Assembly: GCA_027484055.1 (NCBI GenBank) | Contig: JAIXQH010000044.1 | Span: 332,325 to 396,324 of the forward strand | Direction: 5' to 3' | Length of the DNA: 64,000 nt | Source of the DNA: Verrucomicrobiaceae bacterium | Lineage (GTDB): Bacteria > Verrucomicrobiota > Verrucomicrobiia > Verrucomicrobiales > Akkermansiaceae | Part shown: piece after piece, positions 8,514 through 64,000 of the stretch | How the letters are laid out: each line of letters starts with the position of its first letter | Numbering within the stretch: position 1 is the stretch's first letter | Program-made: the position numbers and the translations under genes | Notes under the pieces: model-generated | Database searches by the model: none | The model's input: only the letters and a program-made list of their open reading frames with translations | Told to the model about the DNA's origin: nothing

Positions 8514-11375
8514 TTATGGGTAGCACACCTTGATGTTGCGGACTCGGGCGAAGCTGCCATAGAGGGTCACTGGATCGAGTGTTAGGGTGATCTCCTGCGT
8601 GCCTTTCCATTTGGTGATGGCGGCAAGATCGATCGAAGTCGTTCCCACGCCTGCATCCCCGCATTTTTTCCATACGCCCTTTTCATCCAGAAGACCGATG
8701 ATCGTTCCACTTCCGTTGAGGTCCGGCACCGTGATTTTGAGGATCGGCTTGCAGCTGAAATCAATCTGCTTCAAGGGCAAGGTGACCCGCCCCGACTTCG
8801 CCACGGATCTACCGCTTTCAAAGTAATCGCTGCGAGTCCTGCCGGCCGGCGGGGTGACCTTGATCATGTCGCGATCCACTGTTAACGAAGCGCCGTTCAA
8901 AGCTGTCCATCCCGTGGTGGAATCACAATCGGTGACGTTGACGGCCTTCGGATAAGTGGTCAGAGAGAAATCCTTCTTCCAACGGAAACGGGAATCCTGA
9001 TAGACGATTCTCGCGTTGCCGGGACTGGTCCCTGCCGGTGGGGTGAAGGTGACGACCTGCTTCAAGTTAGATCCTTGCGGCACCGGACCGTGGTCCCACT
9101 CCGCAGGGGATGATGTCCAGCCGGATGGCAGCGTCCAGGTCACTTTACCCGGTTTTCCGCTCTGCCCCGAGGGATTGTGGAGTTGGAATCTGACTTTCAC
9201 GCTATCGCCAGCACCGACGCCATCGGAGTAGGGCTTGGCCACCAAGGCACCCGATTCCTCGGCTAGACCGATGAAATCCGGCATTCCCACGACCTCCACA
9301 TTCTTAGGCAACATGCCCATGAGTTCCTTGACGAAGGTGGGGGAAACCCGGGTGTTGATCGTCAGGAATTTGGGATCTAATCCCGGGTATTCCGCCTCGA
9401 TTTCCTTGATGTCGCTGAGGATGCCTTGTTGTGTGGTTTTTCCGTTTTTCTGGCTCTTTCCATGGAAGCGTTTGTCGTTGCGCACCACTACCGCGCCATT
9501 GTCGAGCCAGTAGGTTTCGGGCCCGCGAGGCGAGGGCAAGGTGCTCATCAGTTTGACACCGGGAAACTCGGACGGCCTGCTGAACTCTTCATACGTTGGC
9601 GAGGAATTGGAATCGTTATCCCAGATATCCACGGCGGGGGAAATCCCCAGCTCGGAAAGCCCGCGGCGTGTGTCTTCCGCATAAAGCTTCAAATTCCGAG
9701 GGGAAAAACTGGAAGCGTGGGTGTAGCCCGCCGTGAATCCCCAGAAGGAGTCTTTCGGCGTGGCCGATTTCGCGTAGAACTCCACCAAAGCCGGGGCAAA
9801 TTTAGCAATCAGGGGATTGAAGCCCCATGTCACGGGCACTTTACCACGGTTCGGATCCTCCCAGTAACCTTCCATCAGATTGTAAGTGAACTCGATGGCG
9901 TCTGCGGACGCCCAACTGAAATTCAGATAGATTTTATTTTCCAACTCTTTGACCTCGCGCACCTGCGGAAGCGGAATCGGACGGCCGGGGGTTTTCAGAG
10001 GAACCCATTGCCAGAAAGAAAAATTCTCGGGAGGTCCACCGGCATAGCGGGCACCGTAAGAACCCATTTTCATGCAGGAATACGACTCGCCTCCGAGCCA
10101 GCCGAAGACCAAGGCGGGAGGTTTAAGATCAGCCAGAATTTTTTCCAGATTCGGATAGCCACCTTCGGTATAGGGCTCCTTTGCCTGATAGAAGAGATAG
10201 GCCTTTTTCGAGATGGCATAGTCCAGCCCCTTGAGAATCCAGGATCCGCCGGAAAAGGAGCCGAACGCGCCCTGCGCGGATTGCTTCCGCTGGTTAGCCA
10301 GCGACCATTCGCACGCTTTTTCCTCATCCTGTTCATATGGAGCGGCTGTCACGAGATCGCGTTTGACGACCAGACCTTTGAAGACGTCCTTTGCGGGAAC
10401 AAAGGGCACGCCTTGCGGATCCTCGCCTTTTGCATTCAGCAGGCGGATCGATTTCACGGTTACGGAGGTGGCCGGGTCGCACGGCGCAATGATCAGTTGG
10501 ACTCTAGTGGCACGGGGATTGAAGAGGCCAGTGGCGGCAAGGTCGGCGGTAAAGGTTCCGGTGATACGGATGTTGGTCAGTCCGGGGATGCTGGTGGACC
10601 GGCAGTTCTCGGGGGTATCCACCGTCGTCGGCGACTTGATCTGCAAGGACCAAGCACCACCCGGGGATAGATCGCTGACCACCACTTCAATCTTCGGGGT
10701 GACATCCACATCCAGATAGACCGTCCGATTGGCAGATCCCGTCCTGTTTGCATTGCCCCCGGGACGGGTTTGCACCGAGAGTCCGCCGGTGGTGGGGCGA
10801 TTCAGCACGGCCACCATCTGGGTCCACTCACCCCCCATCTTCTCATCCTTCCACCAGAAATCGGAGCCCGACAGCATCGCGGTCTGGCATTTCAGGATAT
10901 TTTCGGTGACCGGTAGCAGGTCTTCCTGAGCCGCAAAATTGGCGGCGATCCACGTGTTGTAATACGTGTTCACCTTAGTCTTTTTCACCGGGTCCACATA
11001 GAACGTGGGATATTTCACCAATCCTTTGATCAGCGGAGTGACTCCGTCCGCCCTCTTCATCGCGGCGAACGTGGAGACTGCTTCACCTAACGACTTCAAG
11101 CGGGTGAAGGTGAAGCCCTTTTCCTTTTCCAAGTATTTGATATACACATTATTGGAACCCGCGCACATCCCATGATCCAAGGCGCTCAGAAAAAGACGGG
11201 GAGCATCCCGGTTGACGATTCCCTGGAGTGTGCCGACGAGGTAAAGCTCTTCGACATCCCGAAGTCCGCCGGTGTCCAACAGATAGGCTTGAGTCGCACC
11301 GGAAGCCGCCGTCAAGGTGCCGCAGCAAAGAACGCATGAGAGCGCGGCTATTGTAGTTCGAAAAATATCTTTCAT
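8514..11375 (-). CDS. GxGYxYP-family putative glycoside hydrolase
   Basis: AYLLDTGGLRDVEELYLVGTLQGIVNRDAPRLFL N-terminal signature; ATPKDSFWGFTAGYTHASSF; NEW3-like beta domain near the C terminus; paralogous to the ORFs at 23676 and 37107. Confidence 0.8.
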   Translation of the reverse strand: MKDIFRTTIAALSCVLCCGTLTAASGATQAYLLDTGGLRDVEELYLVGTLQGIVNRDAPRLFLSALDHGMCAGSNNVYIKYLEKEKGFTFTRLKSLGEAVSTFAAMKRADGVTPLIKGLVKYPTFYVDPVKKTKVNTYYNTWIAANFAAQEDLLPVTENILKCQTAMLSGSDFWWKDEKMGGEWTQMVAVLNRPTTGGLSVQTRPGGNANRTGSANRTVYLDVDVTPKIEVVVSDLSPGGAWSLQIKSPTTVDTPENCRSTSIPGLTNIRITGTFTADLAATGLFNPRATRVQLIIAPCDPATSVTVKSIRLLNAKGEDPQGVPFVPAKDVFKGLVVKRDLVTAAPYEQDEEKACEWSLANQRKQSAQGAFGSFSGGSWILKGLDYAISKKAYLFYQAKEPYTEGGYPNLEKILADLKPPALVFGWLGGESYSCMKMGSYGARYAGGPPENFSFWQWVPLKTPGRPIPLPQVREVKELENKIYLNFSWASADAIEFTYNLMEGYWEDPNRGKVPVTWGFNPLIAKFAPALVEFYAKSATPKDSFWGFTAGYTHASSFSPRNLKLYAEDTRRGLSELGISPAVDIWDNDSNSSPTYEEFSRPSEFPGVKLMSTLPSPRGPETYWLDNGAVVVRNDKRFHGKSQKNGKTTQQGILSDIKEIEAEYPGLDPKFLTINTRVSPTFVKELMGMLPKNVEVVGMPDFIGLAEESGALVAKPYSDGVGAGDSVKVRFQLHNPSGQSGKPGKVTWTLPSGWTSSPAEWDHGPVPQGSNLKQVVTFTPPAGTSPGNARIVYQDSRFRWKKDFSLTTYPKAVNVTDCDSTTGWTALNGASLTVDRDMIKVTPPAGRTRSDYFESGRSVAKSGRVTLPLKQIDFSCKPILKITVPDLNGSGTIIGLLDEKGVWKKCGDAGVGTTSIDLAAITKWKGTQEITLTLDPVTLYGSFARVRNIKVCYP

Positions 11376-33331: not shown

Positions 33332-36300
33332 TCAGAGTTTCGCCTCGGCGAAGGTGAAGGTCAGCGTGCCGCTGTAGTTACCCTGGGCTTTGGCAGGTTG
33401 ACTCTCGGGGCCATACGACTCGGCGGCACCGAACTTCGCACCCACGGCTGGGATCGCCTGCAGAAACGAAAAGTCACCAGCCGGAAAGGCCGTGCTGGTG
33501 AACCCGTAACTGATGCGCGGCGTGCCGACCCGAAGATAGACCTCGGGGGAAGCACTGGCGACTGCCAGACGTCCGGCCGGGGTTTCGAGATTGGCCCAAC
33601 GCAGGCCGGAGAAGTAACCTTGGAACTCGGGATAAGCCCACGCTTCGCCGGGCTGGATGTCGTTATAGGCGGTTTCATGAACATCGAGGCGGGTACCCCG
33701 CATACGGTTTTGCCAGACCCTGTGCGGCCCCTCGCCGAGCCAACGCAGGGATTTCATCTGATCCTCGGGATGATCGAAAGTGATGCCATGGTAGAGAAAA
33801 TCGCCGTTTAGGGTGTAGTCATAATCTAGGCGCAGCGAGCCATCGCCCGCTAAAGACCAACGGAAGTGATTCAGCCCGGCCCCGCCTCGACTTTCCAACC
33901 AGACGATCGATTTGCCGGTCTCTGGGTCTTTTCCGCTGCCCGTGGTCAATGTCGCTGGAGCGGTTGTTTCAGCCGGAAAATCCGCCGCCGCATAACCGAG
34001 GCGCACGGCTTTCACCGCGATCGGTTCGCCGTCCTTCGAGATTCGCAAGGCGGCCACCTGTTGCGGGGCGAACTGGCAGCTCTTGAGATTGTTCATGCTG
34101 GAAGTGCCCTCGCAGAGGGTTTTCCACCGCTGGCCGTCGGGCGAGATTTCGAGTTTGTAACGACGGTCGCCACCGAGTTTTTTGAAATCGATCTCCAGTT
34201 GCGCGGTGCTGGCCAGATGGGAAGCGGTAAGCCGATAGATATGCGTGGCCGCGTCCTCGGTGGCGGCGGGCAGCCACTCGACGGCACTGGTGGACTTCGG
34301 TTTGGCAAATGACAGCCGGGGCCCATTGGACAACGCGAACGCCTGATCCCCACGTCGCACGCTTTTCAGCACGCCGCTGGTCGCGTCAAAACTCGCGGTG
34401 AGGCTCTCGGTCATCAATCGGATCTCGCCTGCGGCGGTTTCCACCTTTGGCGTGCCGGTCTTGGTGCTGTCATCTGTTTGCTGCGTAATCCCGGGCAGCG
34501 GCCAAGACCAGCTCCATAGCTCCTGCTGGTCCGGACCGAAGGCGACGAGGGTGAGCGCGTCCGCCTCGCGCCAGTTGGCAGGCAACGGAATTGAGAGCTC
34601 GCCACGGCCATGCGGCGGAATGGCGGGAGACGGGGCTTTGCCTTCTGCAAGGGTCTGCGGGGGAGTTTTTACCGCCGACGGATCGGGGTAACGCACCAAT
34701 TTCCAATGAAAACGGCATTGCTCAAGCGAGGTGAAATCGTAGTGATTTGAAACTGCCAGCCTTCCGGTGAATTTTCCATCGATCACTGGCTTCGCGATTT
34801 GCACGGGTGAAAAAACATCACGGACCGTGTAATAGCTGCCTTCCTTTTCATGGTGTGGGCCGACGATGCCATCCGGCGCATTTACGCCGAACACGTCGAT
34901 CCGTCCATTTTGGTCATCGCGGCGCACACCTTCATCGGCGAACACCCAGATGAAACCACCGGCACCGAGCGGAGATTCGGAAATGGCTTTCCAATAGTCC
35001 GCCAAGCCCGCACCCGCGCCGCCGTCATAGAGGCCGTGCATGAACTCGGTGGGCATGACCAGATTGGGGCCGTTGAGGCAACGGAGGAGTTTATCGTAGG
35101 TCGGATAGTGTTTGGTATCGACGCCGTTGAACGGGTCCCACGGGTGAAGCACGCGGCGATGCTGGGGATCGTAGAGGGAGAAGTCGCCATCGAGATCGCG
35201 GTTCCAGCCGCCTTCGTTGCCGTTGTCCCAAAAAAGAATGGAGGGGTGATTCACGTCGCGCTCAATCATTTCTCTCACAAGCTTACGACCGATCTCAGTG
35301 TCATACGCGTGCTGCCAGCCGGCGAGTTCATCAAGCACGTAGAGTCCGAGTTCGTCACAGGCATCCAGAAACACGGCATCCGGTGGATAATGCGACATGC
35401 GCACCGCATTCATATTCATCGACTTGATCAATCGCACATCCTCGTAGCTGTCTTCGGCATCCAGCGCTCGCCCGGTTTCAGGACGGAAGCTGTGGCGGTT
35501 CACCCCCTTGAGCATGATGCGCTGGCCGTTGAGAAACAGACCCTCGCCATCGCGTACCTCGAAGGTGCGGAAGCCGAACCGCTTCGTGACAGTGTGCAGC
35601 ACCCGCTCTCTGGATTTCCGCGAAATGCGGACCGAATAGAGGTGGGGCGTCTCGGCAGTCCATAACAATGGATTCTTGAATCGCGTGGAAATCCGCAAAC
35701 GTCCGGTTCCGCCGCCGCGGACTTTTTGAGTGAACGGCTCGCCGGCGGGTTGGCCCTTGGCATCGAGAATCTGCGCTTCAATGGTCTCGGGGATTAACGC
35801 CGGGCCGTCCAGCATTCTACCGCCTCGAAAACCCAGAGTGAGATCGGCGGTGAAATTTCCGTCGGCTTGCGCGTCGATCGCGACGTGCTCGATTGCACGA
35901 CCGGGGAGCGCCTCCAGCCAGACTGGCCGGAAAATCCCGCCGAAGACCCAGTAGTCACCGCAGTGTTCGGCCTTGTGTGCTTCAGCATTGGAACTGACTT
36001 TCGCCACCGCGACTTCTAATAGATTTTCCACGCCTTTCTCCTTATTCAAGAAGTTGGTGATCTCGTATTTGAACTGGTAAAACGCACCGATATGAGTGGC
36101 TCCAGCGAGCTGACCGTTCACTTTCACGGTGGCGTCGGTCATCACGCCGTTGAACACCAAGTTGATCCGGCGACCCTCCCAGTTTTCCGGAACGGTGAAT
36201 TTACGGCTATAAAATCCCGTTTCCTGAGGCTGGGAGCTTCCATTTCCATAGGTAAAGTTTCCGAAACCAAGAAGCTCCCAGTTCGAGGGCACGGGAATGG

Positions 36301-36469
36301 TGGCGACCTCACCGGAACGCCTGCCGCCCTCGATTTTGAAATCCCATGGTATCGCATCTTTGGGTCCTTGGCCTGATAGATATTGGATCTCGGTTCTCAC
36401 GTCTTCGGCCAACAAACGCATTGGCAGCAAGATCGCGGCACCGATCAGTAGGATTCTAAAGGTTTTCAT
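33332..36469 (-). CDS. GH2 beta-galactosidase-like, secreted (start placed at MKTFRILLIGAAILLPM)
   Basis: VPSNWELLGFGNFTYG; AVRMSHYPPDAVFLDACDELGLYVLDELAGW; NHPSILFWDNGNEGGWNRD; C-terminal small-chain-like GLRWANLETPAGRLAVAS. Confidence 0.9.
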   Translation of the reverse strand: MKTFRILLIGAAILLPMRLLAEDVRTEIQYLSGQGPKDAIPWDFKIEGGRRSGEVATIPVPSNWELLGFGNFTYGNGSSQPQETGFYSRKFTVPENWEGRRINLVFNGVMTDATVKVNGQLAGATHIGAFYQFKYEITNFLNKEKGVENLLEVAVAKVSSNAEAHKAEHCGDYWVFGGIFRPVWLEALPGRAIEHVAIDAQADGNFTADLTLGFRGGRMLDGPALIPETIEAQILDAKGQPAGEPFTQKVRGGGTGRLRISTRFKNPLLWTAETPHLYSVRISRKSRERVLHTVTKRFGFRTFEVRDGEGLFLNGQRIMLKGVNRHSFRPETGRALDAEDSYEDVRLIKSMNMNAVRMSHYPPDAVFLDACDELGLYVLDELAGWQHAYDTEIGRKLVREMIERDVNHPSILFWDNGNEGGWNRDLDGDFSLYDPQHRRVLHPWDPFNGVDTKHYPTYDKLLRCLNGPNLVMPTEFMHGLYDGGAGAGLADYWKAISESPLGAGGFIWVFADEGVRRDDQNGRIDVFGVNAPDGIVGPHHEKEGSYYTVRDVFSPVQIAKPVIDGKFTGRLAVSNHYDFTSLEQCRFHWKLVRYPDPSAVKTPPQTLAEGKAPSPAIPPHGRGELSIPLPANWREADALTLVAFGPDQQELWSWSWPLPGITQQTDDSTKTGTPKVETAAGEIRLMTESLTASFDATSGVLKSVRRGDQAFALSNGPRLSFAKPKSTSAVEWLPAATEDAATHIYRLTASHLASTAQLEIDFKKLGGDRRYKLEISPDGQRWKTLCEGTSSMNNLKSCQFAPQQVAALRISKDGEPIAVKAVRLGYAAADFPAETTAPATLTTGSGKDPETGKSIVWLESRGGAGLNHFRWSLAGDGSLRLDYDYTLNGDFLYHGITFDHPEDQMKSLRWLGEGPHRVWQNRMRGTRLDVHETAYNDIQPGEAWAYPEFQGYFSGLRWANLETPAGRLAVASASPEVYLRVGTPRISYGFTSTAFPAGDFSFLQAIPAVGAKFGAAESYGPESQPAKAQGNYSGTLTFTFAEAKL

Positions 36470-36548
36470 GCCGTTAAATGATAGAGATATCGCATTCTCA
36501 AACTGCGTAAACGTTGTTTCGATCCCGATTTGTAGTGGAAGTGCAAGA

Positions 36549-36800
36549 TCATGAATGAAGTATTTCACTACTTAAGCACTTAAAGGTGCATACGGAATTG
36601 GTGTTGCCGACGAAAGCCCGCATCGACTTGCCGCTTTGCTTCGCCTCCTGCTTGGCAATCTCGAAGGGTTCTATCCATTTCAGTTCGGCGACGGGCTTGC
36701 TAACTTTTCCTCCTGCAGGTGGTGCGTCCGCGGCATGAACTGGGGTAATCGTTTTCAGTGCCGCTAGGAACAAGGCAGCGAGGATGTTGGTTTTTTTCAT
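36549..36800 (-). pseudogene. Truncated N-terminal fragment of the thioredoxin-fusion family
   Basis: AELKWIEPFEIAKQEAKQSGKSMRAFVG resembles PDWKLPYSAAEKEAKATGKPMLVFVG of the 48629-50536 protein; homology stops after FVG. Confidence 0.7.
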
Positions 36801-36912
36801 GAGTTTATGACGACGGCCTGGATGCTCGTGGGGCGATGGAATGCCTTCTCTAGACCAAGGACATCCCTTACTCCAACTCGCCAGCGTATTTTTCCTTTTT
36901 CATAGGTGGCTG

Positions 36913-36940
36913 CGTGCAAATCGTATGGTCATACGTGCAT
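36913..36940 (-). promoter_or_regulatory. 21-bp phased direct repeat operator (ATGCACG-N14-TTGCACG reading toward 36800)
   Basis: Plus strand CGTGCAA at 36913 and CGTGCAT at 36934. Confidence 0.65.
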
Positions 36941-37106: not shown

Positions 37107-39914
37107 TCAGGGGTAGCAGACCTTGATACTCCGAAGCCTCACGTATTTCCCATGACTGGTCGCGGGATCGATGCTCAGCGTTAGATCTTTTGTGCCAGTC
37201 CATTTAGTTGAACTCAGGTCAATGGAACCGCCCGAAATTTTGCACTCTTTGTATTCGCCTTTATCATCGGTGACCCCGATGCGAGTTCCACTGCTGTCTT
37301 GGTCTGGAATGTTGATGATCAGAACGGGTTTGCGGCTGAGGTCGAGCTGTTTCAAGGTGTAGGAAACCCGGCCATTGTTTTCGATCTTGGTGCCACTCCG
37401 GGAATCGTGGCGATCCACAGCAGTCTTCGGGGTGATCTTGAGCATTCCGCGGTCCACACTAACGGTCGCTCCGCTCGTGGCCGTCCAACCCTCCGTGGAT
37501 TCGCAATCGGAAAGGCTGCTCCCTTGCGGATAGGTCGTTAAAGACAGCTCTTTTTCCCAGCCAAAACGGGAATCCTTGTAGCCGATCACCGCAGTTCCCG
37601 AGGTCATGCCGGCAGGCGGAGTCAAGGTCACCGTCTTCTTCAGATTCCCCCCTTTCGGAACCGATCCATGGACCCACTCTGCCGGCGATGATTTCCATCC
37701 CGGCGGCAGCGTCCAGCTCACCTTGCCCGCATCTCCAGTTGTTCCCGAGGCGTTATGAAGCTCAAAGCTGACTTTGAGGGTGTCGCCGGAACCCACTGCC
37801 TTCGAGAAAGGAACAGCCGTCACGGCACCGGCTTCCTGTGCCAGAGCAATGAAGTCAGGCATCCCGACCATCACCACATTCTCGGGTAACAACTCTTGAA
37901 CCGCTTTCAGGAAAGTCGGCGCGAACCGGCTGTTGCAGGTTAAAAACTGTGGCCCTTTCTCCGGGTGCTTCGCTGCGGCAGCCTTGATAGATGCGACAAT
38001 CGTTTCGGGCGTCGATTTTCCATCACTCTGCCAGACGGAAAATAGCCCCTGATCCAAGCGCACAACAGGACAGCCGTTATCCAGCCAATAGGTCTCCGAA
38101 GCTTTCGATCCATTGGGAAGGACACTCATGAGCTTGACGCCCTCGGACTTCGGAGTTTGCTGGCTGAGCGCCTCGTAAGCCGGGTTATACGACGAGTTGC
38201 AATCCCAGACATCCACGGCGGGAGAAAGCCCCAGCGCACGGATTCCACGTGAAGTTTCTTCCGAATACTTCTTTAAATGAGCCTCCGGAAAACCTGAGAG
38301 ATGAGTGTATCCTGCGGTAAAGCCCCAGAAAGAATCCTTGGGCGTGGCCGATTGGGCGTAAAACTCCACGAAGGCCGGCGAGTATCGGGCGAGCAACGGA
38401 TTGAAGCCCCAAGTGGCGGGCACCTTGCCGCGGTTGGGGTCCTGCCAGAATCCATCCATCAAATTGTAGCTGAACTGAATGTAATCTGCGGATGCCCAGC
38501 TGAAGTTGACATAAACCTTGTTCTCCAGCCGGGTGACTTCCCGGTCTTGAGGCAGCGGAACCGGTTGTCCCGTTTTTTTGAGCGGCACCCATTGCCAGAA
38601 TGAAAAATTCTCCGGCAATCCCCCGGAATAGCGCGCACCGTAATGGCCCATTTTCATACACGCATAGTCCTCGTCGCCCAACCAGCCGAAGACCAGCCCC
38701 GGCGACTTGAAATCACCGAGAATCTTGTCCAGATTCGGGTATCCATCTTTCACAAAGGGAGTCTTGTCCTGATAGAAATGGTAAACTTTTTTGGCGATGG
38801 TGTAGTCGAGGCCCATGAGAATCCACGAGCCTCCGGCATAAGAAGCGAAGGCATCCGGTAAGCATTGGCTGCGCTGATTCGCCAGTGACCATTCGCAGGC
38901 GCTATCCTCGTTTTGCTCGTAGGGGGGCGAGGCTGCCAGATCCCGTTTGATGACCAGCCCCTCAAACGCATCCTTCCTAGGAGAATAAGGAGGGGCCGAC
39001 GGCTCTTGACCGTTCGCATCCAGAAAGCGGATTGATTTCACCGTGACGCTCACCTCAGGAGCTGAGGGAGTGATGTGTAGCTCGGCCCTTCCAGCACGCG
39101 GCTGAAAAAGGCCAGTGTTAGCCAGATCGACCACGAAGGTTCCGGTCTTGTCCATATTTGCCAGGCCGGGGGCCATCACGCCGCCTCGGTTCTCGAAGGT
39201 TTTGATCGTCGAACCCATGGAGACTCCCAGAGACCAAGCCCCGCCGGGGCTGAGCTCACTCACCACGATCTCAACCTTCGGCGTCACATCCAGATCCAAA
39301 TAAACCACCTTGCCGGCATGGCCACCCTTCCTCCCGGAGGTCACGCTCAAGCCATTCTCTTTCGAGTTTCTCATCTTCACGAACATCTCGCTCCAACCGC
39401 CCATGCCGGTGTCCTTATACCAAAACTCCGAACCACTCAGCATGGACGACTTGGATTGAAGCATCCCGTCGGTGACGGGAAGCAAATCCTCCTGCGCGGC
39501 ATAGTTGGCGGCAATCCAGTAGTTGTGATACAGGTTCACCATTTTATTGGCTTTCGCGTCCCAATGAGTCGCAGGATATTTGATAAGACCCTTGATCAAG
39601 GGCGTAACTCCGTCCTCCCGCTTCATCGCGGCGAACGTCGCAATCGCATCCGGCAAGGACTTGAGCCGGGTGAACTTGAAACCTTTCTCCTTCGCCAGAT
39701 AGTCCGCGTAGACATTGTTGGTGGAACCTTTGGCCAAGAACAGACGCGGAGCATCCCGGTTCACGATCCCCTGAAGAGCGCCGACTAAATAAAGCTCCTC
39801 CACATTCCCGAGCCCGGCGGTGTCCAATAGATAGGCCGGGGTTGCCAAGATGGTCTGCGGGCTCGTCAGCATCACCGCCATGGCGGCGAGAATCGTAAAT
39901 CGTTTTTTTGTCAT
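37107..39914 (-). CDS. GxGYxYP-family putative glycoside hydrolase
   Basis: PAYLLDTAGLGNVEELYLVGALQGIVNRDAPRLFLAK; ATPKDSFWGFTAGYTHLSGF; close paralogue of 8514-11375. Start placed at MTKKRFTILAAMAVM. Confidence 0.8.
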   Translation of the reverse strand: MTKKRFTILAAMAVMLTSPQTILATPAYLLDTAGLGNVEELYLVGALQGIVNRDAPRLFLAKGSTNNVYADYLAKEKGFKFTRLKSLPDAIATFAAMKREDGVTPLIKGLIKYPATHWDAKANKMVNLYHNYWIAANYAAQEDLLPVTDGMLQSKSSMLSGSEFWYKDTGMGGWSEMFVKMRNSKENGLSVTSGRKGGHAGKVVYLDLDVTPKVEIVVSELSPGGAWSLGVSMGSTIKTFENRGGVMAPGLANMDKTGTFVVDLANTGLFQPRAGRAELHITPSAPEVSVTVKSIRFLDANGQEPSAPPYSPRKDAFEGLVIKRDLAASPPYEQNEDSACEWSLANQRSQCLPDAFASYAGGSWILMGLDYTIAKKVYHFYQDKTPFVKDGYPNLDKILGDFKSPGLVFGWLGDEDYACMKMGHYGARYSGGLPENFSFWQWVPLKKTGQPVPLPQDREVTRLENKVYVNFSWASADYIQFSYNLMDGFWQDPNRGKVPATWGFNPLLARYSPAFVEFYAQSATPKDSFWGFTAGYTHLSGFPEAHLKKYSEETSRGIRALGLSPAVDVWDCNSSYNPAYEALSQQTPKSEGVKLMSVLPNGSKASETYWLDNGCPVVRLDQGLFSVWQSDGKSTPETIVASIKAAAAKHPEKGPQFLTCNSRFAPTFLKAVQELLPENVVMVGMPDFIALAQEAGAVTAVPFSKAVGSGDTLKVSFELHNASGTTGDAGKVSWTLPPGWKSSPAEWVHGSVPKGGNLKKTVTLTPPAGMTSGTAVIGYKDSRFGWEKELSLTTYPQGSSLSDCESTEGWTATSGATVSVDRGMLKITPKTAVDRHDSRSGTKIENNGRVSYTLKQLDLSRKPVLIINIPDQDSSGTRIGVTDDKGEYKECKISGGSIDLSSTKWTGTKDLTLSIDPATSHGKYVRLRSIKVCYP

Positions 39915-40011
39915 TTTTTCGAAAGTGACATCGACGATCACTTTTTCGGGAAAAGCTGTCGATGGGCTACAGGTAGTGGATCAGGCGACGGAGGGTTTGA
40001 GAATCGAGCTG

Positions 40012-40039
40012 CGTGCATTTCTCACACGGAATCGTGCAT
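40012..40039 (-). promoter_or_regulatory. 21-bp phased direct repeat operator (ATGCACG-N14-ATGCACG toward 39914)
   Basis: Plus strand CGTGCAT at 40012 and 40033. Confidence 0.7.
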
Positions 40040-40070
40040 CTTACGTCCCGACCGACCATGAAAGGCAGGA

Positions 40071-40123
40071 ATGCACGCCAATACATGCAAAATGCACAAA
40101 TGCCTGTTTTCAAAATATGCACA
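40071..40123 (+). promoter_or_regulatory. Phased direct repeats (ATGCACG 40071, ATGCACA 40092, ATGCACA 40117) toward the plus-arm gene
   Basis: First pair spaced exactly 21 bp, third half-site 25 bp later. Confidence 0.7.
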
Positions 40124-40360
40124 GTCAGGGAGTATGTCGTGGTGTGTGATATCAGTGCAAAATGGACCTTCGGCAACCCTGAGCGAGCTAACGGTCGCAC
40201 TGAACCTCGTGCGCTGTCGTTGAGAGACGACGGTCCAGGTCGATGGTCGTAAGATCGGGATCCAGATCCGCCGGTCCGCGCCGCGCCTCCACGATTTAGG
40301 GCAGTTGCCCCGAAATCATTGTTTTACCTTCTTCCATTGAACCCAACCGCTGCTAACCCA

Positions 40361-43300
40361 ATGAAGTTTACCGACTCTGTGTCTGCCTTTTTGTGCCAAA
40401 TACCGTCCTCTCTTCACAAGGGGCTCGTCGGGTTGCTCGGCGTGTTAGGTTTCGCCCAGTCCTTCGGCGCAGAACCGATTGCGCAAGCGTTTGAAGTTCG
40501 CTACTTCACGCAAAATCCGGCGGCCATCGGCGAAACGGATTTCAAAGGAAAAACCGAATTCCTCACCACCGATCAACGCGTCGATTTCCTCAAAGCCTAC
40601 GCCGACTATGGCCGGATTTTTTGGGGCGATCCGAAACTGGACAAAGAAGTATTTCCTCTGTCCGAAGCCCGCGTGCTCACCCAGAAGATCAAACCGCAGC
40701 CCAAGCCGCAGGTTCGCGTCCGGATGCTGCAGGATGATTGGGCTTGGACGGGCCTTGCGCTGTCGACCGGGGCGAAGACTAAAACCATGCAACAGCCTTG
40801 GCTGAAAGCACCGGGTTTGAGCATCGCCGACGGCCGCCTGAACTTTACCGAGGCTGCCCAAACCTCCTATAACATTGAACCCAGCCTAAACTGGCGCGGA
40901 CGTCTCCAACTCCAGTTGGATGTGAGCAAGACGCAGGCGGAGAGCACCTTCGCCTTGGGCCAGGCCGTCGTGGTCGGCTTCGACGCCCGGCAAAAGTTCT
41001 TTTATATTACCGATCAGAAGCGGGTTTTCCCGGATGTTAATATAGTTGCGGGCGCGGTGGCCCTGGCGCTGGAAGTGGATTTCACCACGCAGCGTTTCAA
41101 CGTGAAGATAAATGATAAACTCGTGGCCGACTACGTGCCGTTTTCCGACCCCAAGGCAGTCGCCGCCGCGCAGCTGGAAATTCGCGGAGCCGCCCGGCTC
41201 TCCATCGGCTCACTCTACGGAGCGGTTTATGTTAAACAAAACGTCGCGGAGTATCCTTATACCATTCACAGCTTCATCGACGCCGATTTTAAACCCGCCG
41301 TATCCACCGACGGTTGGGTGAATGCTGGCTATAATGATGCCGCTTGGGCGCGGTCCGCGCTCCCCATTGTGCATGGCGGCGAACGCTACCAGGGCGAAGC
41401 GCTGTTGCTGCGCAAAACCTTTGTCATCGAAAACCCCGAGGCCTGGTCGCAGGCGCTGCTGAATCTGGAAACCGTCGTGCCGTCCGGCACGCTTTATATC
41501 AACGGAAAACCGTTCGAGGTGATCCATGATGTGAAGCCGAAGCAGATTGATATTCGCCGCGCCCTGCGCCGTGGCACCAATACCATCGCCCTGCAGGTTG
41601 ACAGCTACTTGGTTAAAGAGGAACAGGTCATGAAACACACCTCCACGGACCGGAACACCGGCTGGTTTGCGGGCCGGATTCACTTGGACCTGCTAAAAAA
41701 CGAAGCGCTCGACGACGTGTTTGTATCCACGGCCAAGCTCGCGAACGACAGCGCGGAACAGGACTTTGATGTTACCTGGCACAGCAATCGGGACGAGGTG
41801 TTCACCGGAAAAATGCGGATCAGCCTCGCGCCTTGGTTCCCTCGCGAAGGCGCGCCGGTCGTGGTGCAGGAAGTCCCGGTCACCGCCATCCCCAAGATTG
41901 CGAATCGGTTGAAGCATCGCCTGACGGTGCCCAAGCCCGCCCTGTGGACCAGCGATTCGCCCAACCTCTATTTAGGCAAGGTGGAGCTCCTCGATCATAC
42001 CGGGGCGGTGGTCGATGATTGGAACGTCACCACCGGCCTGCGCACCGTTTCCCAAACCGGCGGAACCTTTCGGATCAACGGCCGCCCGGAAACCCTCCGT
42101 GCGCCCCTGTTGTTCGGCAGCCGGACGCCGTTGGAGAACATTTCCAAGTGGGACAAATGCCCGCCGCTGGAAAATCTCGTGCAGGAACTCACGATGATCA
42201 AACGCATGAATGGCAACGGCGTGCGCATGAGCGTGCATGACACCAAGCAAGGCGGCATCAACGACCCGCGCATTGCGGAGATCGCCGACCAAATGGGCCT
42301 GATGCTCATCTGGCAGACCTCCGCCTGGCTTCGCGAAGGCAACGTGTTCAGCATCGATGTCGATCTGCTGAGCGCGGACGTCCACCTGGTGCGCAATCAT
42401 CCGTCAATCGTGATGTGGCAGACGGCCAATCACCCTTATGATTGGTATGGTTGGGACAACGTGATGGTGGCCTATCGCCGAATTTACGACGCCATTGTGC
42501 GCTGGGATACCACGCGCCTGATTTCCCCCAACGCGGATTTCCGCTATTTTCACCCGACCAGTGACGACGGCACAACCGACCCCGATGGAAAGCCGGTCAG
42601 CCCCGACCCCATCTGGACCGCGCCGCTCATCACCCGCGGCAACATGGACTACATCTGCGGCTACGGAAACAGCTGGACGGCGTTGCGGAAATGGCCCGAC
42701 CCGGAGAAGGACGAATGGCCCCTGTATGTAAAGTTCAAGCCGGTCATACGTCCCTTTCTCGAAAGCCCGGACCGCGCATATTTCAATTTCGAGCATGACG
42801 AATCCGCCGCGCAGCCCAATTGGACGCTGATCAAGGGCCAGCCCTATTATCACGTGGCCAGTTATGAACATAGTTATGAAGAAGGCAGTATCGGCCGCCT
42901 GCTCAGTTTCGACGAATGGGACACGAGCCAGGCGTGGCAGGCGCTGATCGCCTACGAATCCATCAAGAAAATGCGGATGTGGGACTACGACGGCTTCAGT
43001 TGGTGCAACCTGCGCGGCGGCCCCAACACCGCCACCTACCAGAAACCGCTCATGGATTACGAAGGCGTCGCGAAGCTGGCCTTCTATGCCCACAACATGG
43101 TTTTCCAGAACACCGTTGCCGGCAGTGAAAATGTGGACGTCGTCTACGGACCGGGAGACTCGATCACGCCGGTTATTTTCAATTTGGGCGACGCGCGCAC
43201 CGTGTCGTTGTCCGCCCGGTTGCTCACCCGCGACGGCAAGATCCTCGAAACGAAGGCCCTCGGTCGCTTCGATCTGCCGGCCGGGCGGACCTTCGTGCGC

Positions 43301-43369
43301 GGCACGCCCTTCCGCTTTGAAAACACCCCTGCGGATGGAACTTACGTCGTCACTTACGTGTTGGAATAA
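40361..43369 (+). CDS. GH2-like protein with large N-terminal extension; possible pseudo-enzyme
   Basis: Sugar-binding domain YQGEALLLRKTFVIENPEAWSQALLNLETVVPSGTLYINGKPFEV; RNHPSIVMWQTANHPYDWYG replaces the usual NHPS..GNE motif. Start placed at MKFTDSVSAF. Confidence 0.75.
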   Translation: MKFTDSVSAFLCQIPSSLHKGLVGLLGVLGFAQSFGAEPIAQAFEVRYFTQNPAAIGETDFKGKTEFLTTDQRVDFLKAYADYGRIFWGDPKLDKEVFPLSEARVLTQKIKPQPKPQVRVRMLQDDWAWTGLALSTGAKTKTMQQPWLKAPGLSIADGRLNFTEAAQTSYNIEPSLNWRGRLQLQLDVSKTQAESTFALGQAVVVGFDARQKFFYITDQKRVFPDVNIVAGAVALALEVDFTTQRFNVKINDKLVADYVPFSDPKAVAAAQLEIRGAARLSIGSLYGAVYVKQNVAEYPYTIHSFIDADFKPAVSTDGWVNAGYNDAAWARSALPIVHGGERYQGEALLLRKTFVIENPEAWSQALLNLETVVPSGTLYINGKPFEVIHDVKPKQIDIRRALRRGTNTIALQVDSYLVKEEQVMKHTSTDRNTGWFAGRIHLDLLKNEALDDVFVSTAKLANDSAEQDFDVTWHSNRDEVFTGKMRISLAPWFPREGAPVVVQEVPVTAIPKIANRLKHRLTVPKPALWTSDSPNLYLGKVELLDHTGAVVDDWNVTTGLRTVSQTGGTFRINGRPETLRAPLLFGSRTPLENISKWDKCPPLENLVQELTMIKRMNGNGVRMSVHDTKQGGINDPRIAEIADQMGLMLIWQTSAWLREGNVFSIDVDLLSADVHLVRNHPSIVMWQTANHPYDWYGWDNVMVAYRRIYDAIVRWDTTRLISPNADFRYFHPTSDDGTTDPDGKPVSPDPIWTAPLITRGNMDYICGYGNSWTALRKWPDPEKDEWPLYVKFKPVIRPFLESPDRAYFNFEHDESAAQPNWTLIKGQPYYHVASYEHSYEEGSIGRLLSFDEWDTSQAWQALIAYESIKKMRMWDYDGFSWCNLRGGPNTATYQKPLMDYEGVAKLAFYAHNMVFQNTVAGSENVDVVYGPGDSITPVIFNLGDARTVSLSARLLTRDGKILETKALGRFDLPAGRTFVRGTPFRFENTPADGTYVVTYVLE

Positions 43370-48628: not shown

Positions 48629-50536
48629 ATGAGATTTTATGAATTGATAAGCGCTGGGTTGTGTTCGGGTCTGCTTTTGGCGGCCACCGCAGGTCGTGGA
48701 GTAGCGGCGGAGCCTGCGGCGCAAGCGCTGAACGGCCCGGATTGGAAGTTGCCCTATTCGGCTGCGGAGAAAGAGGCCAAGGCCACAGGTAAACCCATGC
48801 TGGTTTTCGTTGGGGACCCGCAAGCCTGTTCCGGGTGCAGAGAGTTTCTCAAAACCGTCTGTGCGGACCCCGAATTTATCGCGTTTACGAAAGACGCTCT
48901 TCTTTGCACCCAGTTGATCGGGGACCGCAATGACTCGAAGGAGGAGAAGTCGAAAAAGGGCCACGCGATTGAATCCTTCAATATACCGGCATCGCATGCG
49001 GTCATTATCACGAATCCCGACGGCAAGCGCATCGGCGAACTCTCCACCACGCCGGTATCGATCGGCCAATTCAAAAAGGACATCCAGGCGTTTATCGCCA
49101 AATCCCGTCCCGAGGGACGCTTGAAATACACGGAGGTTGAATTGTTGGACAAAGAGTTTACCCCGTCGAAAACCTATAAAACCGAGCCGCCAAAGTTTTC
49201 GCCGGAGCCGCTCAAGGGTCGATATATCAATTTCCTGACCGCTGTCCGTGTCCACGCTTGGGAAAACACCCGGGCGCGCACCCACGGCACCTGGATGGAA
49301 CGGAACAAACACACGCCCGCCATCGCCCTAAAGATGCGCAAGGCACTGGCCGAAGGCTTCCCCGGAGCGCGCATCACTTGGGGTTGGTCGTGGGCCGCGT
49401 TGAACGATATGTCTCCCAACTATGTGGAGCTGCGCAAGCTGATGAGCCAGTTCCACAAAGAATATGGCGATGAGATGACCTTTTGGCCGGGAGTCTATTT
49501 TGCGGATAAATTCAACACGGTGGAGCAGGCCAAGAAAGATCTCCACGAAGGGCTTGAACTCATTACCAAAATGGTGGGTGACGGCTATCGGCCCAAGTCG
49601 GTGCTCGCCGGCCACATGTCGGTTGAAAGCATGAAATACCTGGCCAAATACGAAGGTATCCACACGGTGCAAGGCCAGATCTGGAGTCAGTTCGACGTGG
49701 ACGGACAGGACGGCGATGGCGGTATCATTTATCCCTATTATCCGTCGAAGGAGCACTTTCTAAAACCTGCCCAAGGCCCCCGCGGTGGCGATGATTTTGT
49801 GGATATGGTCAACATTGACGGCTGGACAGTGGACTTCTTCGCCGCCCGCAAACGGGGCACCGGCAATGATTATAACAGCCGGGTGGGAATCGGTCCCATC
49901 GAGACCTACACCTACTACGGCAAGGAAATGGGACTGCGGCAAATGCTTTACACCACCGATGTCCACTTCAACGAAAAGGCTGTCTCGGATAATGGTTATG
50001 GTTTTCTGACCGTGAACTGGGAACTTTCGCTCTTTGAGTGGATCGACCCGCAATACCTCGTCAGGTGGCTCACCACCATCCGCACAAAATATCCAGACAC
50101 GCAGATGCTGACGATGGGAGATTTTGGCGACTTATGGCGCAAACACAACCCCGACAACAGCCGCATCAATCTTAAATTTGTGCAACGCGGCCACGACATG
50201 CCCAAGGAATATGAAGGGAAAAAAGTCACCCAGCACCCCCCGATTTTCCGTCCAGAGATGGAGATTCGTTGGTATTTTAACAAAGACTTCCGCTTTGCGA
50301 CTATTCAGAATTGGCAGGAAAACGGACCGAAGCTGGTGATGGATTACACGCGCTACAATCAGCCCTATAAAGAGCCCAGCGGTAATGTGATCGAGCGCCA
50401 TTGGGATATTCTGGATATCATCAACCAGAAGGAATCCCGTCCGCAGGACAAATATAAACCCTTCACCGAACTCCCCGCCGAAGAGCAGGCGAAGGTTCTA
50501 AAATGGTATCCTGAGCTGAAGAATCTGAAGCCCTGA
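48629..50536 (+). CDS. Thioredoxin-fold N-terminal domain (CSGC) fused to an uncharacterised C-terminal domain
   Basis: EAKATGKPMLVFVGDPQACSGCREFLKTV..NIPASHAVIITNPDGKRIGEL; C-terminal part with ITWGWSWAALNDMSPNYVELRKL..FWPGVYFADKFNTVEQAKKDL..GFLTVNWELSLFEWIDPQYLVRWL has no family I can assign with certainty. Confidence 0.65.
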   Translation: MRFYELISAGLCSGLLLAATAGRGVAAEPAAQALNGPDWKLPYSAAEKEAKATGKPMLVFVGDPQACSGCREFLKTVCADPEFIAFTKDALLCTQLIGDRNDSKEEKSKKGHAIESFNIPASHAVIITNPDGKRIGELSTTPVSIGQFKKDIQAFIAKSRPEGRLKYTEVELLDKEFTPSKTYKTEPPKFSPEPLKGRYINFLTAVRVHAWENTRARTHGTWMERNKHTPAIALKMRKALAEGFPGARITWGWSWAALNDMSPNYVELRKLMSQFHKEYGDEMTFWPGVYFADKFNTVEQAKKDLHEGLELITKMVGDGYRPKSVLAGHMSVESMKYLAKYEGIHTVQGQIWSQFDVDGQDGDGGIIYPYYPSKEHFLKPAQGPRGGDDFVDMVNIDGWTVDFFAARKRGTGNDYNSRVGIGPIETYTYYGKEMGLRQMLYTTDVHFNEKAVSDNGYGFLTVNWELSLFEWIDPQYLVRWLTTIRTKYPDTQMLTMGDFGDLWRKHNPDNSRINLKFVQRGHDMPKEYEGKKVTQHPPIFRPEMEIRWYFNKDFRFATIQNWQENGPKLVMDYTRYNQPYKEPSGNVIERHWDILDIINQKESRPQDKYKPFTELPAEEQAKVLKWYPELKNLKP

Positions 50537-63641: not shown

Positions 63642-63669
63642 TTGCACAAACAAGCATGTTAAATGCACG
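63642..63669 (+). promoter_or_regulatory. 21-bp phased direct repeat operator (TTGCACA-N14-ATGCACG)
   Basis: TTGCACA at 63642 and ATGCACG at 63663, 110 bp upstream of the ATG at 63779. Confidence 0.65.
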
Positions 63670-63778
63670 TGAGCGTCTTGTATGGTTCGCGACTAGATGC
63701 TTAATTTGTCGACTCTCGAGACAGAGTGCTCCTTTGCTGCTCTACCGCTCGGTTCAGAGTTCCTAACCCAACAAAACC

Positions 63779-64000
63779 ATGAAAACCAAAAACCGTTTCC
63801 TATTTCCATCCCTCCTCACCGTCGCCTTCGCTAGCCAACTCCACGCCGCGTCACTAACATGGACCACAGGAGACGGTGGCGATGGAAACTGGAGCAACAC
63901 CGCCAACTGGGGTGGTGCGACCTTGGCTCCCAATGATACCATCACCTTTGGTGCCACCACCGGGACCACGACGCTCAACAACGATCAGGCCGCCGCAAAC
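63779..64000 (+). CDS. Autotransporter-associated beta-strand-repeat type secreted protein, truncated by window end
   Basis: MKTKNRFLFPSLLTVAFASQLHAASLTWTTGDGGDGNWSNTANWGGATLAPNDTITFGATTGTTTLNNDQAAAN; typical LTW..GDGNWS...NW start. Confidence 0.75.
   Translation, partial: MKTKNRFLFPSLLTVAFASQLHAASLTWTTGDGGDGNWSNTANWGGATLAPNDTITFGATTGTTTLNNDQAAAN

Follow-up and report, generated by a model that had tools for sequence, protein, structure and literature searches.

A 21-bp-phased direct repeat as the probable operator of a XylR-type activator in a polysaccharide island of a Verrucomicrobiaceae bacterium

Verrucomicrobia carry very large polysaccharide islands. In the AraC system, araI1-I2 consists of 21-bp direct repeats. 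The AraC half-site is TAGC-N7-TCCATA, with GC at positions 3-4 and CAT at 14-16 (PMC4514859). E. coli XylR is an activator, and at xylE its two sites are directly adjacent, the right-hand one beside the RNA polymerase site (PMC6375646). AraC-family rhamnose regulons with direct-repeat motifs of 21-bp periodicity have been predicted in Bacillales, Bacteroides and Enterococcus; their regulators are non-orthologous and their motifs unique, and the text does not mention Verrucomicrobia (PMC3870299). The beta-1,3-xylan regulon of Vibrio is governed by XylRA, a LacI-AraC fusion acting via direct repeats before several polysaccharide operons (PMC12125979). For XylR/AraC-type regulators of Verrucomicrobia, we found no described operator in the literature.

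The stretch analysed here (hereafter the window) comprises 64,000 nucleotides and is the last 64 kb of contig C34. An earlier note on the window had pointed to WTGCACR half-sites repeated at 21 bp toward both arms of the divergent region 40012-40123, and to pairs of identical geometry (WTGCACR-N14-WTGCACR) at 36913-36940 and 63642-63669. All of these repeats were recovered from the sequence at the coordinates given there:

40012-40039, minus strand: candidate operator pair ATGCACGATTCCGTGTGAGAAATGCACG, ATGCACG at 40012 and 40033; faces a GxGYxYP glycosidase gene; weight-matrix score 31.3 bits
40071-40098, plus strand: candidate operator pair ATGCACGCCAATACATGCAAAATGCACA, ATGCACG at 40071 and ATGCACA at 40092; faces a GH2 gene; 31.5 bits
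40117-40123, plus strand: extra half-site ATGCACA, 25 bp on, within the predicted promoter spacer
36913-36940, minus strand: candidate operator pair ATGCACGTATGACCATACGATTTGCACG, preceding the GH2 gene 33332-36568; 29.5 bits
63642-63669, plus strand: candidate operator pair TTGCACAAACAAGCATGTTAAATGCACG, preceding a gene for a PATR-type surface protein at the contig end; 31.1 bits

The rarity claimed for such pairs is borne out, with four same-strand pairs at +21 in the window against 0.01 expected from dinucleotide shuffles. Single WTGCACR 7-mers are not enriched (28 against 35.6 expected), and the pairing is therefore the special feature. Every one of the four pairs is intergenic and has its half-sites facing the gene downstream, both as described. 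The half-site at 40117 is present, but it does not share the 21-bp phase; since its distance to the neighbouring half-site is 25 bp and it lies in the spacer between the predicted -35 and -10, we place it outside the phased pair.

Pattern scans of the 4.40-Mb genome returned six exact WTGCACR-N14-WTGCACR pairs, five of them at 293-396 kb of C34 and the sixth at C25:43377, within a 480-aa coding ORF. A 28-bp weight matrix was built from six sites and run over C34 and selected stretches, the remaining genome being covered by the pattern scans. The matrix adds three sites on C34, bringing the total to nine:

C34 238909, minus strand
C34 260169, minus strand
C34 264318, minus strand
C34 293593, minus strand
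C34 300824, minus strand
C34 369237, minus strand (window 36913)
C34 372336, minus strand (window 40012)
C34 372395, plus strand (window 40071)
C34 395966, plus strand (window 63642)

All nine sites are located in the last 157 kb of C34 (238.9-396 kb), each oriented toward the next gene, and in all nine the half-sites are direct repeats spaced by exactly 21 bp. They score 26.7-35.8 bits with a nine-site matrix; the next-best candidate on C34 reached about 13 bits with the first, six-site matrix. Eight lie outside called genes, though gene calls cover 94% of the region, and the frame hosting the ninth (117 aa, overlapping two larger genes) is probably spurious. In eight cases a downstream gene is present on the contig, and in six of these its called start is located 70-142 bp from the pair. 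The earlier note had named an equal frequency of pairs in coding DNA and before unrelated genes as counting against it; this distribution was not found, and the observation of the repeats is correct and stronger than first stated. A decayed look-alike of the 260169 site (TTACATCCGATCTGATACAAAATTCGCG, 12 bits; locus L034) was seen at C34:264709-264736 (minus strand) near the end of a LacI-type gene, and is perhaps the relic of a duplicated promoter.

A refined form of the motif, TGCAC-N13-AAATGCAC, occurs six times in the genome, always on C34, and four times in 72 other genomes of the genus, three of these four being one sequence shared by three genomes. That the repeats arose by chance or were carried along by duplicated or mobile DNA might be argued from identical pairs in coding or repeated DNA of other genomes, such as recurrent matches in genus g3 and four copies in G406. 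We consider this explanation to have a negligible probability. The expectation of 0.01 pairs and the flanks of the sites, which are at most 33% alike, rule out a chance origin; the flanks also show that the sites are not copies of one DNA segment, the promoter offset is fixed, and the nine sites are confined to one island. The G406 copies, identical instances of TGCACCGGTTGTATTGTCAAATGCACG on its contig C1 (792083, 1402485, 1525331 and 2650866), probably sit in a mobile element. In G010 and G088, TGCACGTGC arrays scored with the matrix but are tandem repeats and were set aside as operators. Arrays of 21-bp units (ATGCACGTGCGCTACGATAAA and variants) resembling the half-site are found at L103:2040-2160 (G010:C22) and L102:5760-5900 (G088:C123), and are not clearly promoters.

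The consensus of the sites is about WTGCACR-N6-SATACRAAATGCACR. In the first half-site, a TGCAC box is followed about one helical turn on by an AT(AC) box, and the second TGCAC box begins exactly 21 bp after the first. Among the six first sites, the upstream half-site has TGCAC at positions 2-6 and AT at 15-16, each position being conserved in five of six, while the downstream B-box is not clearly conserved. The AraC arrangement of GC at 3-4 and CAT at 14-16 matches the best, SATAC-bearing half-sites of the island (PMC4514859). The sequence, the sensor domain and the phylum differ from those of AraC and araI1-I2.

The nine sites described above were aligned on the operator with four from relatives (two from G135, one from G052 and one from G013), thirteen in all. 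When every downstream offset is compared, TTGACA is matched best at operator position 37 and TATAAT at position 60, so that a -35 at 37-42 and a -10 at 60-65 are separated by a 17-bp spacer. Circular-shift controls reached the observed value in 0 of 2000 cases for the -35, 9 of 2000 for the -10 and 0 of 2000 for both jointly, and the same positions come out best when the nine own sites and the four sites of relatives are taken separately. Several single hexamers match the consensus poorly, the -35 hexamers of this genome averaging 3.2 of 6 matches. In the window, the consensus offset predicts the following boxes:

39998-40003, minus strand: predicted -35, TTCTCA (operator position 37-42), weak as a single hexamer
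39975-39980, minus strand: predicted -10, TCCACT (operator position 60-65), weak as a single hexamer
40107-40112, plus strand: predicted -35, TTTTCA
40130-40135, plus strand: predicted -10, GAGTAT
63678-63683, plus strand: predicted -35, TTGTAT
63701-63706, plus strand: predicted -10, TTAATT
36899-36904, minus strand: predicted -35, TATGAA, weak

This offset puts a weak -35 box at the end of the downstream half-site. This is the layout of class II AraC-type activators, and in araI1-I2, too, the downstream half-site is located at the -35 box. The sites could instead bind a repressor, or an activator-repressor, of the AraC or another family: the operator edge abuts or overlaps the -35, the half-site at 40117 falls within a promoter spacer, and the island contains a LacI-type gene (C34:264722-265723). 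We regard this as very unlikely, because operators of the LacI family are palindromic whereas these are direct repeats in nine of nine sites, which led us to reject a LacI-family operator. Poor -35 matches are moreover what is expected of activator-dependent promoters, and AraC and XylR, as class II activators, use just this arrangement of direct repeats that end at the -35. The AraC-type operator proposed in the earlier note is thus upheld by the 21-bp direct repeat, by the fixed -35/-10 just downstream and by the occurrence of the same motif class before XylR-type AraC genes, as described below.

The genes facing the four pairs of the window are as follows:

37107-39914, minus strand: GxGYxYP putative glycoside hydrolase with signal peptide, ATG at 39914 (frame to 39941); putative target of the 40012 pair
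40361-43369, plus strand: GH2-type glycosidase, likely ATG at 40361, ORF reaching TTG at 40319; putative target of the 40071 pair
33332-36568, minus strand: GH2 beta-galactosidase-like gene; putative target of the 36913 pair
63779-64000, plus strand: N-terminus of a surface protein (signal peptide, PATR-type), cut by the contig end; putative target of the 63642 pair

The called start of the 33332-36568 gene is 345 bp from the 36913 pair; at 113 bp, an ATG at 36800 begins an 83-aa frame with a signal peptide. This frame (36549-36800, minus strand) starts like the Thioredoxin_7/DUF3863 proteins of the island (48629-50536) and stops early; it is probably a truncated gene between the 36913 pair and the GH2 gene. 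Beyond these genes, the island with the sites encodes GH78 and GH106 rhamnosidases, GH2, GH3, GH43, GH59, GH88, alpha-galactosidase and GxGYxYP proteins, together with esterases, a polysaccharide deacetylase, glucuronate isomerase and altronate/galactarate dehydratase. This inventory suggests polymers of rhamnose, galactose and uronate rather than of xylose, and a reasonable guess is that the substrate would be a rhamnose- or uronate-containing polymer such as the rhamnogalacturonan of pectin, or a polysaccharide of algae or gums.

Among 73 genomes of the genus, G158 is the only one besides this genome with a gene closely related to the GxGYxYP gene, and the island is therefore uncommon in the genus. 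No operator site was detected at the G158 relative, and close GxGYxYP relatives in named genomes number only two, both without a site. Three GxGYxYP paralogs, about 59-60% identical, occur in this one island (window 8514-11375 and 37107-39941, and C34:284568-287444). The proposal that one regulator controls the whole island holds in part: nine promoters over 157 kb carry the site, but several long operons of the island do not.

In relatives, the site is linked to XylR-type genes. In G052 it lies in the divergent gap between a XylR-type gene and a PEP-CTERM/sulfatase row. One site of G135 precedes a PATR gene, and in the gap before a XylR-type gene there is another, with 22 of 28 positions identical, which faces the divergent neighbour. 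The gene row of G013 comprises a CTGCACG 21-bp pair (low on the weight matrix at 5.1 bits), a PATR/PEP-CTERM gene, a XylR-type gene and a GxGYxYP gene. In the 350 bp upstream of 56 XylR-type loci, TGC[AG]C pairs at lag 21 were found in eight regions, against a mean of 0.27 per other lag; the independent count is lower, about five, because the G052 region had been found by the pattern itself and L161, L162 and L167 are near-identical and not phylogenetically independent. A further XylR-type gene, L143 (G013:C85:19759-20895), has TTGCAC-type 21-bp pairs on both strands upstream, a second back-to-back case like 40012-40098.

Most XylR-type proteins with a linked TGCAC site have R-x-L-Y in their first recognition helix; where E replaces the Y, the pairs are TGCGC in several cases. 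L143 has a different recognition helix, yet TTGCAC pairs. As a clean marker of TGCAC the tyrosine was rejected, since it is present in 10 of 56 proteins and several of these lack a pair within 450 bp. Given these exceptions, a Tyr/Glu specificity is a lead only.

Which protein reads the sites? The genome has 14 HTH_18 (AraC-domain) genes, none of them anywhere on C34. The best candidate is a XylR-type gene near the end of contig C39, proposed on the basis of its domains and its similarity to the G052 and G013 genes:

C39:167441-168634 (L099:7442-8635): candidate XylR-type regulator gene

Its product has a Peripla_BP_3 domain (1.9e-28) followed by HTH_18 (1.1e-16). It thereby has the same layout of LacI-type sensor and AraC DNA-binding domain as E. 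coli XylR, whose structures 4fe4 and 4fe7 it matches over its full length (4fe4_A, E 3.8e-38, residues 8-380). The half-site and the recognition helix are different, being WTGCACR here and RRALYQKF in the C39 protein as against RSNLEKRF in XylR. The gene is this genome's best match to the site-linked XylR of G052 (31%), and its product is 71% identical to the site-linked protein of G013. A gene on G174:C9 was rejected as an ortholog at only 31% identity.

The earlier note had supposed the regulator to be unlinked. We posit that it is probably linked, since the end of C39 probably abuts the right end of the window. Immediately upstream of the XylR-type gene, the end of C39 encodes a PATR/PEP-CTERM protein that lacks a start and retains its C-terminal 735 residues. 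The right end of the window encodes the initial 74 residues of a PATR-type protein behind the 63642 site, in an orientation that fits the C39 remnant. Among the PATR genes compared, the one that immediately precedes the G013 ortholog of XylR is closest to this N-terminus: it scores 103, and none of ten others exceeds 77. Matching of the PATR C-terminus was discarded as proof of the join, its repeats making it non-discriminating. Contigs C7 and C28 can be joined at their ends by an exact 119-bp overlap inside a PATR gene; with this pair resolved, the ends of C34 and C39 are left unmatched among the PATR genes examined, and further PATR genes are present elsewhere in the genome. As the two ends share no overlap, the C34-C39 join is a prediction from truncated-gene matching and G013 synteny. 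The PATR/PEP-CTERM gene whose start is at the right end of the window would probably be followed directly by the C39 gene.

An operator of the same type could also be read by another of the fourteen AraC-domain proteins, or by one missing from the 95%-complete assembly. XylR-type genes are found among the fourteen on C20 and C62, the latter adjoining a GH88 gene as in the window, and the C34-C39 junction is itself predicted. Three findings make a different reader unlikely. No site above 15.2 bits was detected near the other AraC genes scanned in this genome; G135 has a 78% counterpart of the C20 gene and many genomes of the genus give 389-aa matches to it, while the site is nearly absent from the genus; and it is the C39 gene that best matches the site-linked G052 regulator and has the site-linked ortholog in G013. 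Taken together, the repeats are likely to be operators of one XylR-type activator, most likely the product of C39:167441-168634.

Such a regulator would combine a LacI/periplasmic-type sugar-sensing domain with an AraC-type double helix-turn-helix domain. Two subunits would occupy the two half-sites spaced by 21 bp (A-box WTGCACR, B-box about SATAC) on one helix face. With the downstream half-site ending beside a weak -35 box, the regulator, once bound, may act by class II activation and recruit RNA polymerase in response to its sugar ligand. Two such operator-promoter units, placed back to back at 40012-40123, would activate the GxGYxYP and GH2 arms, and through seven further sites the regulon would extend to other glycosidase operons across the 157 kb of the island.

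The mechanism is of a known kind; the operator and probable regulon are new, and the operator and its probable regulator seem to be undescribed in this group. The predicted targets are rhamnosidases, GH2 and GxGYxYP enzymes, unlike the xylose genes of E. coli XylR. The rhamnose regulons share the 21-bp direct repeats and the rhamnose theme, and differ in that they comprise catabolic rha genes, whereas mainly secreted glycosidases are found here (PMC3870299). Vibrio XylRA is similar in regulator type and in its direct repeats at polysaccharide operons, and different in its AT-rich XylR-like motif and its substrate xylan (PMC12125979); here the motif is TGCAC and the rhamnosidase island is larger.

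As a more speculative possibility, to which we give less than even weight, a code may extend across the XylR-type regulators of this family of Verrucomicrobia. They would read 21-bp-phased WTGCRCR, with Tyr specifying TGCAC and Glu TGCGC, and one regulator would have spread over at least nine promoters, making a single-signal regulon of a genus-rare 157-kb island. Now that a 28-bp operator is defined, with a fixed offset to the promoter and a candidate regulator, the inducing signal of the island becomes testable, and the operator offers a means of sorting the operons of the island into regulons from sequence alone.
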